From Planctomyces sp. SH-PL62 (GTDB lineage Bacteria; Planctomycetota; Planctomycetia; Planctomycetales; Planctomycetaceae): a DNA stretch of 64,000 nt. The notes under the pieces are model-generated. The model was not told the DNA's origin, did not search any database, and saw only the letters and a program-made list of their open reading frames with translations. A program made the translations under genes and the position numbers. Below, in pieces: positions 31,609 through 38,549 of this stretch; within the stretch, counting starts at the first letter, position 1, and each line of letters begins with the position of its first letter. The stretch is taken from assembly GCA_945893045.1 (NCBI GenBank), contig CAMDEA010000011.1, positions 1 to 64,000 on the forward strand. Reading direction: 5' to 3'.

Positions 31609-34600
31609 TCAAGGATCGGCCGTCGCACTTGGAACCGTTTGCAAGAAATGCCACACCGCCTCGAACTGTTGGCGGGCATCGCCGTCGAAGACGTTCTTGA
31701 CTTTGGTGGTGCGGCCGTCGACGACGAGCTTGGGCATGCGCGTGGTGACGTCGTAGCGCGGCGGATCGAGCGTGAAGCGGCGATAGAAATCGTGGCGGAT
31801 GCGTTCGCGAGTCTGAGCGAAGTTGATCCCTGGCGCGAGCAGCGTGCTCTTGTCGCCGGTCGGTGGCAGCGGGCCGATCGCGTGGCATTGGCGGCAGTCG
31901 AGCAATCCCGCTCGCGTGGCGAGGGCTTCGCCGATTTCGGCGAGGTCTGGTTCGATGCTCGGTCGCGGCAACGGTTCGCGCGACAAGCCGTGCTCGTGCG
32001 CGAGGCCGTTGGCCAGCAGAAGCGCACGTGCGGGGAAGCTTGGCATTCGCAGCTTCATCCAGGGACGCGGTCGCTCGGCAATCTGACCGGCCAGCAGCGA
32101 TTGAATCCACGGCGCGTGCAGTTTCTCGCCCGCCCAGGTGAGGTTCGGAACGACTTCGGGGGGCAAGCCGGTTTCGCTTTCATCGGCGAGGATTTCCGAG
32201 AGCGAGTTTCGGCGGCCGTCGCGCGGGTGACAGACGGCACATTGCAAGTCGGTCATCAAGCGGCGCGACATGTCTGTGAACGAGTCGGCAGACAGTTTCC
32301 GCTCATCACTGCGAAGCAAAGTCCGCAGCGCGGATTGTTCCGCCGGGTTCAAATCGTAATTGGGCCAGCGATCCGCGGGAGCTTGCTCAGGGACGGCGAG
32401 ACAGCCGCGTACAGGGGCTTTCCCAAAGACCGACGGCAAATGCGGTTTCGGCAGCGGTTCGTTGTGTGACACGCGATGACATTGCCGGCAACCGAGCGAC
32501 GCGAACAACTTTTGCCCGCGAGCGACATCGCCATTGGCTCGAATGGCTGGCAAGGCACTGGCCGTGTCGGCTGGTTCGGTCAGCAACTGCGTGAGCGATG
32601 CCGCCTCCGCGTCCGAGAGTCCGAAGTCCGGCATTCGACTCCAGGCGTGATGCCGCTGTGGCTGTTGGAGGAAGTGAGCTAATTCGCCAGGCAAGAACTT
32701 GTCGCGTGCGAAGAGCAATGAGGTTCGGTTGTCGGTCAGTTCGTCTTTCATCGGCTGCAATCGGTGGCAACCGATGCAGCCAAGGTCTTCCCACAGTCTC
32801 AAGGATTGCTGGCGAACGGGAGGCTCGGCGTAGCCACGCTCGCCAGAACGTGGAGCTGGCGACGATGCACCCACGCTCTTGGCGAGCGTGGCTACTGACA
32901 AATACGCGGCGATGTCAGCCGCCTGTTGTCGATGTTCGTCGGTTGGCGATTGCGGGAAGAGTCGCGGCATTCGCGCGTCGGCTCGCATCTGCGAAGGGTT
33001 GAGTACCCACTGAGCGATCCACTCGCCGCGCAATCGTGAGCCGATGCCAGTCAGGTCCGGCGCTTCGGCATGCAACTCCGGCATCGCGCGCTTCGATTGC
33101 AGAACCTCATCCGAGACACGGTGGCAGCGGAAGCATTGATGATTCGCGAACAACTCGCCGCCGAGTCGCAGCGAATCGACTACTTCCGGCAACCGTTCGC
33201 AGAACAGTGATGTCGGTGGGATCGGTTCGGTTTCAAAATCCAAGCCGCTCCAGAGCAATCGCAAGGAGGTGAGTTGATTGGGGGCCACTCGTTGCACAAT
33301 GCGCAATCGATTGTAGCCGCGCACGAGTTCCACATCGGCCGGTTTTTCATCAGACGATCGCCACACGATTCGATCGCCGATCGAGACATCTGTTGCGCCA
33401 CTTCCCTCGGCCGAGAAGCGATACTTTCCGCGCCGCGGTGCGACGAGGTATCCATCGGCAACGATCTGGCGAGTGCCGGCAAGCTCGTCAGGTTCAAACC
33501 GCCAAGCAGCCATGCGCCGCACGTGGGGCACGATTTCAACCTGCCCGTTTTTCTGGTCGGGCACGTTGGAAACGTGCCCCACGAACTCGCAACGAATGCC
33601 GGGGACCAGCTTCTCGACTTCCGCTTCCGCAAGCAGTCCGGGACGTGCTCTCGGCGGACGATTCGGAACCTCGTAGCGCCCTTTGCCGACCGCGTTGATG
33701 GTCGCGTCGATCCGCCGCTCGATTGGCCGGCCGTCGGCGGACTTGAGGCTTAGGCTGATCGAAAGCTGATGCACCGGCTGCATATTCGACAACTCCAAGA
33801 ACACCGTCGGCTCAGCAAAGCCCGGCATCATTGTCGCCGAGATAACCTCAACCTCATCGCGTCCTTCTTGAGTCGGGGCGGAGACCTTGAACTCTGGCGA
33901 GCCATACGCGGCTGACCAGCGGTAATTCCATTTCTGGATGCGGTAGTTGTCAGGATCTTCGGCCTCCTTCGGATCGAGCGGGTCCGTGAAGGTCAGGGCC
34001 ACGCCATTCTCAAAGGCCACGATCTTGAGTGGCAGGTCGAGCGGACGTTCGTTGTAGCGCACTCGCTGGAAGCAGCCGTCCTTCGCGGCGTTGCTGACCC
34101 AGCCGCGCAATCCGCTGACGTAAAGGTGCTCGTCCGAACGGCGGAAGCGGCCGCGCATCACGCCAGATTCAAACGACAGCGGCAGCGGAACGGTCGCACC
34201 GTTCCAGATCGTGACGTCTTTGTCTGGCTCCCTCGCATCAGGCCGAACCGAGAGACCACCACCCGAGGCGCTCTGCGAAACCAAACTGCGAATGTGGCTG
34301 TGCCGCAGCAGCAAAAACAATTGGCTGGTGCCGTAGGACAAGTGCAGCGGCAGCCCCGCGAGTTTGCCCCAGTTGCGATCGGGAATCCACACTTGCCCGC
34401 CGCTGGAGTTGTCTTGAAGCCGCGGAATCCAACACAGCGGCGCGCTGAACTCTGTTGGTGGTGTCGCTCGATGAGCCGACGGCGTGTATCCGTAAAACCG
34501 GCCCTGGTTCACCTGAAAGATTGCCGAACCCGGCGTCCATTCCCCTTCCTGCGGAGCGACCGTGAAGATGTCGCCAGGATTGAGAATGTTTTCGACCTGC

Positions 34601-36120
34601 CCTTCTTTCCGCACACCGGGCAACAGATCGGACATCTGTCGAACCCCCAATCCGTTCGCGTTGCGAAACCCGGTCGCGAAGACCTCCAGCTTTTGTCCGT
34701 CGGGAGAGACTCGCAGCAAGCAGCCGTCGTGATCGGTCGCTCCGTCGGCGTTTCCTTTCAGGAAATAGAACCAGCCCAGTGAATCCGTTTCGAGACACGT
34801 CACGTACTCGTGACCGTTGGCGGTGACTTGGCCGTCGTTGTTGAAGTTCTCGTACCAGTCCGCTTCGCCATCTCCATTGAGATCGTGCAGCCGAGTGATC
34901 TGGTCCCGGCCGACGACGTAGATTTCGCTCTTGACGATCTTCAGGCCGAGCGGCTGGAACAATCCGGTGGCGAACCGCTTCCATTTGAGCTTCTCCAGCT
35001 TGTCATCAATGCCGCTAACGAGCCACACGTCGCCATGCAAAGTACAGATGGCCGCGTCGTAGGCCAGCCTTTCCAGGCTGACCCGAACGTCGCTCGACTC
35101 TGATCGCGCAGCCGACGTTGGTGAAGCGTTCGGGTCAGCCTGGAAAGGCTGACCTACGAAGAAGTCATGCCCGCCGACAAACATCAGCGCCTTGTACGGG
35201 TTGTCGAACGGCAGCGTGAGCGTATCGACGACCAACGGTTCGTCTTTGTCGGATACGGCTCCGCGCGTCGTGATCTCGTGAGTCCAACGGGTCGGTCCAG
35301 GTTCGACGAGTTGTTGGAGCGCTGTTTTCTCCGTGCCCTTCCGTGAAATCCGTGGCGTCAATGTTCGCTCATCCAACTTTTGGAACACGGATGACGCGGA
35401 TTTCGCGGATGCGGGAAAGTAGAGCGTCAGACGGACGGGTTGAGCGTGCGGCGGCACTTTGACCGTGATCGGTCCTTTGTCGTCGTACCGTTCGAGCGTC
35501 GCGGCGTTCGGCTCATGGATCAACTTCACCGGTGTTCCCGGCTCGGCCACGAGCAATTCCAAGTCCGAATCGCTCGGCGCGATTTCGAGTTCACGCGAGA
35601 AGACTTTTTCGCCTTCAATCGTCTCCAACCACGGACTCTCCCACACGACGACTTGCTGCGGCCCGACGGTGTATTCAAAGACCACTCGATCGCCGTGCAA
35701 GTGCAGGCCGCGATACTTGGCCCACTCGCGCGGCAGCGGGCCAAACGGTTTCGGACGCGGGTCTTTGAATTCACCCTCGCGTGACCATCCGGGCTGTCTC
35801 GGCGAATGAAACGCGATCTCTTTGCCCACCTTCGGCGGGCCGATGATGCCGTAGCGCGCCGGATTGAATTCGAGAAACTCGCCGGTCCAACCGCAGACGA
35901 CGCGCAGCAGTTCCGTATCGAACAAGATCGACGCTTCCGACTTTTCGCCGATGCGCACGGCGATCCCTTTGAGCGTCATCTCCTTCGGCGTCCAAATCGT
36001 CGCCGAGTAGAACCGACCGACATCCATTTGCTGCAAGCGATTATCGACCGAATCTTGTTCGGTCCACTTGAATCCGACGGCATCCTCGCCCCAATGGCCG
36101 GTGATCTTGCCTGGTTTCAA
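31609..36120 (-). CDS. Multiheme cytochrome-motif protein with propeller region (DUF6797-like N terminus)
   Basis: About 1503 residues. The N-terminal part (YSATIWTPKEMTLKGIAVRI, VCGWTGEFLEFNPARYG) resembles DUF6797. A propeller follows (FATGFRNANGLGVR, DLNGDGEADWYENF), then a sandwich domain, then a C-terminal part with five CxxCH motifs (CFRCH, CIGCH, CRQCH, CAVCH, CRQCH). It should be periplasmic, yet it has no signal peptide and no good start. The frame is open to a GTG at 36288, but that part is the ThuA gene in another frame. TTG 36118-36120 is only a placeholder. It may be made by -1 frameshifting from the ThuA gene. Four in-frame repeat elements interrupt it and a fifth crosses its start. 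Confidence 0.75.
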   Translation of the reverse strand: MKPGKITGHWGEDAVGFKWTEQDSVDNRLQQMDVGRFYSATIWTPKEMTLKGIAVRIGEKSEASILFDTELLRVVCGWTGEFLEFNPARYGIIGPPKVGKEIAFHSPRQPGWSREGEFKDPRPKPFGPLPREWAKYRGLHLHGDRVVFEYTVGPQQVVVWESPWLETIEGEKVFSRELEIAPSDSDLELLVAEPGTPVKLIHEPNAATLERYDDKGPITVKVPPHAQPVRLTLYFPASAKSASSVFQKLDERTLTPRISRKGTEKTALQQLVEPGPTRWTHEITTRGAVSDKDEPLVVDTLTLPFDNPYKALMFVGGHDFFVGQPFQADPNASPTSAARSESSDVRVSLERLAYDAAICTLHGDVWLVSGIDDKLEKLKWKRFATGLFQPLGLKIVKSEIYVVGRDQITRLHDLNGDGEADWYENFNNDGQVTANGHEYVTCLETDSLGWFYFLKGNADGATDHDGCLLRVSPDGQKLEVFATGFRNANGLGVRQMSDLLPGVRKEGQVENILNPGDIFTVAPQEGEWTPGSAIFQVNQGRFYGYTPSAHRATPPTEFSAPLCWIPRLQDNSSGGQVWIPDRNWGKLAGLPLHLSYGTSQLFLLLRHSHIRSLVSQSASGGGLSVRPDAREPDKDVTIWNGATVPLPLSFESGVMRGRFRRSDEHLYVSGLRGWVSNAAKDGCFQRVRYNERPLDLPLKIVAFENGVALTFTDPLDPKEAEDPDNYRIQKWNYRWSAAYGSPEFKVSAPTQEGRDEVEVISATMMPGFAEPTVFLELSNMQPVHQLSISLSLKSADGRPIERRIDATINAVGKGRYEVPNRPPRARPGLLAEAEVEKLVPGIRCEFVGHVSNVPDQKNGQVEIVPHVRRMAAWRFEPDELAGTRQIVADGYLVAPRRGKYRFSAEGSGATDVSIGDRIVWRSSDEKPADVELVRGYNRLRIVQRVAPNQLTSLRLLWSGLDFETEPIPPTSLFCERLPEVVDSLRLGGELFANHQCFRCHRVSDEVLQSKRAMPELHAEAPDLTGIGSRLRGEWIAQWVLNPSQMRADARMPRLFPQSPTDEHRQQAADIAAYLSVATLAKSVGASSPAPRSGERGYAEPPVRQQSLRLWEDLGCIGCHRLQPMKDELTDNRTSLLFARDKFLPGELAHFLQQPQRHHAWSRMPDFGLSDAEAASLTQLLTEPADTASALPAIRANGDVARGQKLFASLGCRQCHRVSHNEPLPKPHLPSVFGKAPVRGCLAVPEQAPADRWPNYDLNPAEQSALRTLLRSDERKLSADSFTDMSRRLMTDLQCAVCHPRDGRRNSLSEILADESETGLPPEVVPNLTWAGEKLHAPWIQSLLAGQIAERPRPWMKLRMPSFPARALLLANGLAHEHGLSREPLPRPSIEPDLAEIGEALATRAGLLDCRQCHAIGPLPPTGDKSTLLAPGINFAQTRERIRHDFYRRFTLDPPRYDVTTRMPKLVVDGRTTKVKNVFDGDARQQFEAVWHFLQTVPSATADP
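32830..32895. repeat. In-frame palindrome in the multiheme gene (66 bases)
   Basis: Inverted arms from GTAGCCACGCTCGCCAGAAC (32830) to CTAC (32895). At 66 bases it adds exactly 22 codons (around KSVGASSPAPRSGERGYAE) between two heme segments. Confidence 0.8.
33522..33583. repeat. In-frame palindrome of the GTGGGGCACG family
   Basis: The arms CGTGGGGCACGATTTCAAC and GTTGGAAACGTGCCCCACG are inverted with two mismatches. It encodes VGHVSNVPDQKNGQVEIVPH in the multiheme gene. Confidence 0.8.
35059..35157. repeat. In-frame GTAG...CTAC palindrome (99 bases)
   Basis: Imperfect 31-bp arms at 35059-35089 and 35127-35157, of the same family as 2006-2117 and 21914-21986. The 99 bases equal 33 codons and encode a low-similarity stretch (VGQPFQADPNASPTS and onward) in the propeller region. 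Confidence 0.85.
35336..35412. repeat. In-frame repeat of the CCGTGAAATCCGTG type
   Basis: The sequences ccttccgtgaaatccgtggc and gatgacgcggatttcgcgga are roughly inverted and related to 18657-18765. They encode SASSVFQKLDERTLTPRISR in the multiheme gene. Confidence 0.55.
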
Positions 36121-36177
36121 AGTAGCCGCGTCACTCCGTGACGCGAGTTTCGGGTCACGGAGTGACCCGTCTACTTT
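36119..36177. repeat. 59-base palindrome at the ThuA/multiheme junction
   Basis: Imperfect 28-bp arms at 36119-36146 and 36150-36177. It is identical in sequence to the copy inside the ThuA gene (37510-37568). On the minus strand its TAG (36173-36171) ends the ThuA gene. In the -1 frame it reads VDGSLRDPKLASRSDAAT, leading into the multiheme protein. Confidence 0.92.
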
Positions 36178-36183
36178 TTTTTT
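36171..36183 (-). promoter_or_regulatory. Possible -1 frameshift site: A AAA AAG followed by TAG
   Basis: On the minus strand the ThuA gene ends GCA AAA AAA AAG TAG. The heptamer A AAA AAG (36180-36174) is in the correct phase, the same as the slippery site of E. coli dnaX, and a hairpin-forming palindrome lies immediately downstream. A -1 shift enters the multiheme frame. The A9 run could also allow transcriptional slippage. The hairpin foot overlaps the heptamer, which is closer than usual. Function is inference. Confidence 0.5.
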
Positions 36184-38549
36184 GCAGACGCCGGCATCCC
36201 ATCGGCACTGCCGGGGAGCCACGCCTTGAGCTTGTTCGCCGACAGATCCACGAAGCTGCCTCCGTCGCTCAGCGTGTCGAAGTTCCACAACGCGATCGCC
36301 GAGTCGTCGGCTTTCAACGCTTCAGTCGGTACGTCTTTGATCGGACGCAGACCGCGTGAGATGCGCAGGTCGTCGATCACTCCGTCGCAGCCAATCACCT
36401 GATCGACCAGCGAACCGATCGACAATTCCTCCTGCGCCGGCTTCAACACAGAACCGAACGCTCCCTCTTTCGTCTTCACTTCTTGATCGGCGACCTGCTT
36501 GCCGTCCACAAACAAGCGGAGACGAGCTGGCTCGAACTGCATCGCCACGAAGTGCCACTTGCCGTCAGCGACGTCAGTCGCGGCGCGGACGTGATCGGGA
36601 GTCAGGCCCGGCGAGTAAACCGTCAGATGTCCGGAACCGGGCATCGTGAAAAGTTCCCAGTGAGTCGGCGACGACTTCAGTTCGTTGGCAACAAGGATGT
36701 TGTACGAGCCTTTGCTGTCGAGCTTCGTCCAGAGTTCGACGGTCAGCGGCAGCTTGCGGAAGTCGTCGCGGTGATTCACGAACGCGCCGCCGAATCGCGT
36801 ATCGAGGGCTTTTCCAAACTTCCCCTCGGCCGTCGCGGAACCAGATTTGCGCGGAGCCTTCTCGGCGGCAGTCACTCCACCCCGCTTCAGCGAATCTTCG
36901 AGCGTCCACGGACTGCCGGCGCGAAACAGCGTGTTCTCGGTAATCGCCACCGGCGGATCGAAGCTGAGCGGATCGCGTCGCGCGGCCCAGACTGTCCCTC
37001 GACGGATTAACGCTCCGGCTTTGCGAATCGAGACGTCCGCGTGGCCGAGCACCGTTTGGAAGACGCGAGCCTTCGATTGCTCATAAGCCCACGCGAGTGG
37101 TTCGTTTTCTTTAGTCACCTTCGATTGAGCTGTGACGAGCGGCACGATCGGCAACGCCCCTTGCTGGCGGAAGTAGAGTTCGTCATCCGTCTCGAACGGC
37201 AGCAAACCGGCCGTGATGGAATGCTTCTCGCCAGCGGCGGTGAGATCGACTTGGAACTTGCCGAACGCATCGTGACCGCTCAGTCCCGGCTTGTGATCCC
37301 AAATGCGGCGGACGATCTGCGTGCGGAACTCCGGCCAGTCCGCCTCTTTGTTCGGCAATGTGTCGGTCCAACTGCCGTTCGCGAAGTGAATGATCGACAG
37401 CCCACCGCCATCGTCGATGAATTTCTTGAGCCTGACTTTCGCGGCGTCGCTCAATCCGGGGCGATCCCAACTGCTGTAGTTGAGGACGAGGGCGGCGTAG
37501 GTGTTCGCCAAAGTAGCCGCGTCACTCCGTGACGCGAGTTTCGGGTCACGGAGTGACCCGTCTACTTTGATCTTCGCCATGTCGTCCGGGTTTTCGATGA
37601 CGTCCACCCACACGCGTGGGTCTTGTTCGAGGATTGGGATCAGCGCGGCGGTCGTCTTGCGCCAATCATGAGCCGGATGATTGTGCCCCGTGACGATCAG
37701 TACGCGGATCGGCTCTTCCATTGCCGAGACCACGCCGCCTGCCGGCACATCGCCGCCGGCCGTCCAGACGATTGCGTTGAGGATCGTGCGGCGAAAATTC
37801 TCGTCCCACCAGTTTTGGAAGAAGTGTCCGCCGGTCGTGCCGAAGCCTCGGCCGCCGTCTTTGCGTTCGACAGCCCAGGCGACGACGTGGTCCTTCTGCT
37901 GCCCAGGCGGCTTCGTCAGCCAGATCGGTTTGACTCGGTCATCGCCGTCGCGAAAGCGGAGGTTGAAATAGAACTCTTCGCGAGCGGTGAATGGCTTCAC
38001 GCCGCGCGCGACCGGATGCTCGGCGTTGCCCAGCGTCACGTTTGCGTCCCAGGTACTGATCGCCGAGAACCATTTGTTGGCGGCCGGTCCTTTCTCGTAA
38101 TCGAAATAGCCGCCCACCCATTCGGTGATCTGATCGTGAACTTGGCTGGGGTTGAACGTGGTCCAGTGGAATTGGACGAACCCGCAACCCCGTTTCATCT
38201 GTCGTTCGAGCGTTTGAAATCGCTCGCCGACATACAGCGGATGATCGGCTGCATTACGGTCGCCGCCGTCAGAGATCATCACGATCGTCGCGGCATCGTC
38301 GAGCGTTTTCTCGTCCGTCGGCCAACCTTTGAAGTGCGTCTCGACGGCAACCTTGCCCTGCGTGCTCGGTGACGTATCGAGCAAATGCTTCAGCAGGATC
38401 ACGCTCTTTTCGTACTCGTGCGTGTGCTTGCCGTGGCCGGTGATCGGCCCGGCGATGAGCACGATCTTCTTCGGAACGGCTGGTTCGGCGGCATTCAATA
38501 GGCCCGATGACAGCAGCAGGCCAATCGCAATCCAGTACCAATTTCGCAT
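36171..38549 (-). CDS. Secreted tandem ThuA-domain protein with C-terminal LamG-like domain
   Basis: This 792-residue protein has a signal peptide (MRNWYWIAIGLLLSSGLLNA). Two ThuA (class-I-amidotransferase-like) domains follow: the first (IVLIAGPITGHGKHTHEYEK...FVQFHWTTF) covers about 25-280, the second (VLIVTGHNHPAHDWRKT...SIIHFANGSW) about 295-520. A concanavalin/LamG module follows (VELWTKLDSKGSYNILV, GKWHFVAMQFEPARLRLFVD). ThuA relates to trehalose/sugar use; the exact role is unknown. A repeat element (37510-37568) is in frame in the second ThuA domain. The stop is the TAG of the junction palindrome, right after an A9 run. Confidence 0.88.
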   Translation of the reverse strand: MRNWYWIAIGLLLSSGLLNAAEPAVPKKIVLIAGPITGHGKHTHEYEKSVILLKHLLDTSPSTQGKVAVETHFKGWPTDEKTLDDAATIVMISDGGDRNAADHPLYVGERFQTLERQMKRGCGFVQFHWTTFNPSQVHDQITEWVGGYFDYEKGPAANKWFSAISTWDANVTLGNAEHPVARGVKPFTAREEFYFNLRFRDGDDRVKPIWLTKPPGQQKDHVVAWAVERKDGGRGFGTTGGHFFQNWWDENFRRTILNAIVWTAGGDVPAGGVVSAMEEPIRVLIVTGHNHPAHDWRKTTAALIPILEQDPRVWVDVIENPDDMAKIKVDGSLRDPKLASRSDAATLANTYAALVLNYSSWDRPGLSDAAKVRLKKFIDDGGGLSIIHFANGSWTDTLPNKEADWPEFRTQIVRRIWDHKPGLSGHDAFGKFQVDLTAAGEKHSITAGLLPFETDDELYFRQQGALPIVPLVTAQSKVTKENEPLAWAYEQSKARVFQTVLGHADVSIRKAGALIRRGTVWAARRDPLSFDPPVAITENTLFRAGSPWTLEDSLKRGGVTAAEKAPRKSGSATAEGKFGKALDTRFGGAFVNHRDDFRKLPLTVELWTKLDSKGSYNILVANELKSSPTHWELFTMPGSGHLTVYSPGLTPDHVRAATDVADGKWHFVAMQFEPARLRLFVDGKQVADQEVKTKEGAFGSVLKPAQEELSIGSLVDQVIGCDGVIDDLRISRGLRPIKDVPTEALKADDSAIALWNFDTLSDGGSFVDLSANKLKAWLPGSADGMPASAKKK
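37510..37568. repeat. 59-base palindrome in frame in the second ThuA domain
   Basis: Identical in sequence to 36119-36177, lying in the same orientation relative to the genes and read in the same frame, encoding KVDGSLRDPKLASRSDAATL between DDMAKI and NTYAALVLNYSSW. Confidence 0.92.

Follow-up and report, generated by a model that had tools for sequence, protein, structure and literature searches.

A conserved nine-adenosine tract as a probable recoding site between ThuA-LamG and multiheme cytochrome frames in a group of Planctomycetes

The window, by which we mean the whole 64-kb stretch of DNA that was analyzed, carries on its minus strand a gene whose product is composed of ThuA domains plus a concanavalin-like LamG domain, and this gene runs directly into a second, longer open frame that encodes a multiheme protein and lies at -1 relative to ThuA. 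The features that surround this join are as follows.

38487..38549 (-): putative ThuA signal peptide, MRNWYWIAIGLLLSSGLLNAA, as read from the sequence by eye
36171..38549 (-): ThuA-LamG ORF, the zero-frame product of 792 aa (Pfam ThuA 5e-33, Laminin_G_3 3e-16)
37509..37568 (-): copy of a 59-bp element, identical to the one at the join, in frame inside ThuA and encoding the same peptide
36175..36183 (-): candidate A9 slippage tract, GC-A9-G, codons GCA AAA AAA AAG, identical in 10 members of the genus
36171..36173 (-): zero-frame stop TAG adjoining the tract, present in 10/10 members of the genus and absent in a sister genus
36119..36177 (-): 59-bp element resembling a GTAG-tagged REP pair, AAAGTAG...CTACTTT, which overlaps the last A residues and the stop
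31609..36174 (-): after-shift part in the -1 frame, 1521 aa, with DUF6797, a propeller-like region and a cytochrome c region

The ThuA-LamG gene ends with TCT GCA AAA AAA AAG TAG. An initial annotation of this DNA had called attention to the heptamer A AAA AAG in phase with an adjoining stop, and the codons found in the 36171-36183 region of the minus strand bear this out. The same annotation had held that a -1 shift enters the multiheme frame, that the multiheme protein carries five CxxCH motifs and lacks a signal peptide of its own, and that a palindrome lies just downstream. Each of these points is confirmed: the -1 frame is open through the join, from before the A-run as far as a stop at 31609; the five CxxCH motifs reside in the cytochrome c region; no signal peptide was found in the sequence of the heme frame; and the palindrome is real, being the GTAG...CTAC element of 59 bp. 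The propeller-like region of the after-shift part is recognized only by a weak match to DUF7133. By eye, the N-terminus of ThuA, MRNWYWIAIGLLLSSGLLNAAEP, reads as a signal peptide, and most ThuA orthologues have similar N-termini. On the basis of this signal-like N-terminus, the zero-frame product would be a secreted ThuA-LamG protein. An AGGAGG-like motif upstream of the tract, which might have served as a Shine-Dalgarno-like stimulator, was not noticed by eye.

The A9 tract is the sole run of A or T of eight or more residues in the window (60% G+C) and, in genome-wide scans made by pattern and protein searches, one of only 10 such tracts in the 7.83 Mb genome. A protein search of relatives uncovered nine further close orthologues, making ten with the window gene; the named genomes of the genus were assembled from metagenomes. 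At the nine further loci, re-fetched from the named records, A9 is likewise the only A run of at least eight within 11-12 kb. The 18-mer TCTGCAAAAAAAAAGTAG is unchanged in all ten orthologues, each with its heme part at -1, and the 13-mer AAAAAAAAAGTAG occurs once in each of the 10 genomes of the genus, always at the join, compared to a single occurrence of its reversed control pattern across twelve genomes.

The linker that extends from the tract to a conserved KITGHWGED motif ranges from 62 to 170 nt and is widely divergent in sequence between species. Its length is constant modulo 3 at all ten loci of the genus, its -1 frame is free of stops in every one, and frame 0 is always stopped. In the genes of the genus, GCA accounts for 11% of Ala codons and AAA for 39% of Lys codons, and of the Val codons used by the ten genes 2.6% are GTA. 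Because GCA and AAA are the less likely choices by this measure and species differ by a dS of about 0.5 or more, a tract that remains unchanged is not expected without selection. The after-shift part, for which dN/dS is 0.16-0.20, is under purifying selection. Taken as a comparison of sequences, these observations make it very likely that the A9 tract with which ThuA-LamG ends is a conserved site of recoding.

A second genus, represented by G118-G120 in a family-wide search, carries GTAAAAAAAAAG at the join, again with its heme part at -1. These genes are about 45-58% identical to those of the window's genus in the parts compared. The codons of their tract are GTA AAA AAA AAG, there is no immediate stop, repeat or hairpin, and the zero frame ends 35 codons past the tract. 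A9 thus marks the frame change in 13/13 split orthologues (ten genomes of the genus and three of the sister genus), and A8 or A10 is never found at the ThuA-heme join in these separately assembled genomes. The concern that resequencing might reveal A8 or A10, which had been named as a way for the initial annotation to fail, can be laid to rest by this consistency.

A search of relatives for a single fused gene had also been recommended, and in more distant relatives the ThuA/LamG and heme parts do form one continuous ORF. The unsplit form is present in G117, in seven members of genus g72 that were included in the tree, and in others. Moreover, two stand-alone heme homologues (G128 and G122) have their own signal-like N-terminus, and since the split heme parts have none, the split form would need the join for export. 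The tree assigns each of the two split genera to its own well-supported clade, close to fused genera, and does not resolve the deep forks; the split form may have arisen once and later been lost, or arisen twice. In G173 (L107), which belongs to another genus, A9-G occurs in frame at position 1485, within the linker of a ThuA-multiheme gene that is not split, and such an arrangement is a possible step before the split.

Two further genes of the family carry A9 tracts that bear on how the ThuA site might work.

G000:C120:11776-11784 (L167, L179; relatives L180-L208, L210-L228): secretin-like/TPR-like split pair
G000:C105:24755-24763 (L165, L248-L259): DUF1080-ThuA fusion with A9 in frame in the linker

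In the first of these, an uncharacterised upstream ORF is joined at -1 to a TPR-like ORF, whose product is found in 156/170 genomes of the family. The upstream ORF looks secretin-like in our own reading of the sequence, which Pfam leaves without an assignment. Among the split members, 48 of the 49 tracts examined are A9 and one is A10, and nearly all stand in a -1 relation (one is +1 and one is not assignable). The codon phases vary, with AAA AAA AAA C.., GCA AAA AAA AAG and CTA AAA AAA AAC all represented, and the structure predicted downstream is no stronger than chance would give (median z -0.6). The pair is fused in one frame in G162, which belongs to the family, and in G040, from another family. 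The +1 relation is seen in G036 (L227), which has A9, and slippage that loses one A or gains two would serve there. In the DUF1080-ThuA fusion, the tract lies in frame; of twelve genomes of the genus, nine have A9 there and one has A10. Slippage at this linker would give a shortened DUF1080 protein. An A9 between TatC and mtnA was considered as a third split and rejected, as these are two ordinary genes.

The 59-bp element exists in about 40 copies in the genome. Read in the -1 frame, the copy at the join encodes the peptide KVDGSLRDPKLASRSDAATL, and of seven further copies examined, four lie in long ORFs, in a common reading frame that yields a similar peptide. The element looks like a GTAG-tagged REP pair, and such REPs are known also from Planctomycetes (PMC3733652). 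Other species of the genus have different palindromes after A9. The multiheme protein, too, includes in-frame palindromic inserts (window 35050-35160, near 33500 and near 32700, minus strand), which read VGQPFQADPN..., GHVSNVPD... and SPAPRSGERG... and vary between species.

The proposal that the site was built by a repeat element is probably wrong, because A9-G-TAG is the same in species whose linkers carry quite different repeats downstream, and we have rejected the REP as its creator. The idea that palindromes are confined to the join was likewise dropped: another ThuA linker has them in 7/10 species, which cannot be distinguished with this sample from the 10/10 at the join (one-sided exact p about 0.1). 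The REP is probably a passenger in a tolerant linker. It may have a stimulating role at the join, since a strong structure is predicted past the stop for most of the ten orthologues.

Several explanations other than recoding deserve consideration. Homopolymers are error-prone and are also classic contingency loci, and this would fit a sequencing error, a decaying gene, or an A-tract made phase-variable by slipped-strand switching in DNA. All of these are very improbable given the invariant length of the tract in 13 assemblies from two genera and the low dN/dS that persists after the join. We give even less weight to the view that these are two independent genes, with the heme protein initiated internally, for example at a GTG or ATG 16 codons before the join. 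Such a codon is present at -16 in 10/10 members of the genus, but its presence follows from a conserved Trp codon, and initiation there leaves the heme protein without the type of signal-like N-terminus with which the stand-alone homologues begin. Moreover, the heme frame of G118-G120 has no start codon in the interval from its last upstream stop to the tract, fused homologues have both parts in one frame, and two separate genes would leave A9 unexplained. Because A9 and the -1 relation are conserved and distant relatives are fused, we set aside error, a pseudogene and an independent second gene. The earlier claim that recoding joins the two frames into a ThuA-LamG-multiheme fusion is upheld, insofar as the conserved tract and frame relation can speak for it.

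More serious competition comes from the mechanism originally put forward, wherein programmed -1 ribosomal frameshifting of the dnaX type would occur on A_AAA_AAG and would be stimulated by a hairpin formed by the inserted palindrome. The heptamer is in the zero-frame phase (GCA AAA AAA AAG TAG) with the stop adjoining, and folding of the 70 nt that follow predicts a stable structure in most of the ten orthologues of the genus: z lies between -3 and -9 in eight, and the structure is weak in G002 and G008, where the palindrome extends beyond the folded stretch. However, A9-G in the sister genus is followed by neither an adjoining stop nor a hairpin, and similar palindromes in the other ThuA linker indicate that hairpins are not specific to the join. 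The heptamer would need only A7, yet A9 is always kept, and other A9 sites lie in phases that lack A_AAA_AAG. Furthermore, frameshifting in E. coli dnaX depends on a single tRNALys that pairs weakly with AAG, whereas in Thermus, which has two lysine tRNAs, polymerase slippage takes place at a nine-base tract instead (review, PMC5009743). Both tRNALys genes, UUU and CUU, occur in the genome examined here, which is not restricted to the sole tRNALys(UUU) to which high efficiency on A_AAA_AAG is attributed. A tRNALys-CUU gene of at least 95% identity is present in 7/12 genomes of the genus; the other five are incomplete assemblies with weaker matches only. The heptamer and its phase stand as originally described, and the ribosomal mechanism attached to them has become doubtful, although we retain it as a tentative alternative. 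As a separate observation, a dense array of 31 tRNA genes for most amino acids lies at G000:C16:63119-68666 (L158), beside a scattered chromosomal set.

Slippage by RNA polymerase is favored at the ThuA site because of the two tRNALys species, the sister-genus tract that lacks stop and hairpin, and the other A9 sites that ignore phase. As A9 is kept whatever the phase, the next base or the structure, slippage on the RNA-DNA hybrid fits these patterns and the heptamer does not. We accordingly rank polymerase slippage above ribosomal frameshifting, with the qualification that the additional A9 sites are themselves read from sequence. We propose that most ThuA-LamG messages would be read to the TAG codon and would yield the exported ThuA-LamG protein. 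RNA polymerase would slip on the nine A residues to produce a fraction of messages with A10, and ordinary translation of these would run on into the multiheme frame. The resulting product, some 2,300 aa long, would be exported and would fuse ThuA-LamG to DUF6797 and the multiheme cytochrome. Some of it may also come from ribosomal -1 slippage on A_AAA_AAA/A_AAA_AAG. We infer slippage itself, its level, its mechanism, and export via the ThuA signal peptide; overall, it is probable that A9 is a recoding site which yields the fusion mostly through RNA polymerase slippage.

The closest parallel is dnaX of Thermus thermophilus, which shares the nine-base tract, the two lysine tRNAs and the production of two product lengths per gene. 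There, the full-length protein is encoded in one frame and slippage truncates it, whereas here the genomic frame truncates and slippage would extend; slippage in Thermus has been measured, and that in planctomycete ThuA is deduced. The dnaX gene of Escherichia coli has the same heptamer and phase, and the downstream hairpin is matched in the window's genus. It differs in having one lysine tRNA to serve it rather than two, and in that the planctomycete site conserves A9 rather than A7 and is missing the hairpin in the sister genus. In slippage-rescued genes, as with endosymbiont homopolymers and Citrobacter rodentium tssM (PMC4256274), a conserved frame break beside poly-A is also tolerated. 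In contrast, the lineage studied here has 60% G+C and is not an endosymbiont as far as is known, and it exhibits a conserved stop after the tract, involvement of several gene families, and fused outgroups. Like GTAG-REPs (PMC3733652) and Rickettsia palindromic elements, the 59-bp element is a GTAG...CTAC palindrome with many copies that adds a short peptide in frame; unlike them, it overlaps the candidate slippage site itself in this species, and other palindromes take its place in other species.

The domain composition suggests that a set fraction of a sugar-related enzyme or binding protein likely carries an electron-transfer module. The main text of the survey that we found on recoding in Planctomycetes mentions neither ThuA nor a cytochrome. 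A nine-A site is fixed in two genera for ThuA, in nearly the whole family for the second pair, and in the in-frame linker of a third gene. To our knowledge, there are few cases of productive recoding in ordinary bacterial chromosomal genes, and most are found in mobile elements, phages and endosymbionts. If slippage does occur as proposed, then automatic annotation splits these genes wrongly, and the frequency of polymerase slippage could be gauged cheaply from the lengths of A-tracts in existing metatranscriptome reads. It is conceivable, though we consider it unlikely, that this is a lineage-wide device wherein exact A9 tracts set the share of an exported protein that bears an additional domain, and that mobile palindromes were co-opted in the window's genus as interchangeable stimulators at one such site. 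Judged by comparison of sequences, the ThuA A9 site of this uncultured planctomycete group probably lets one gene yield two proteins, and the recurrence of the nine-A run in at least two other gene families suggests a genuine device that extends beyond this gene.
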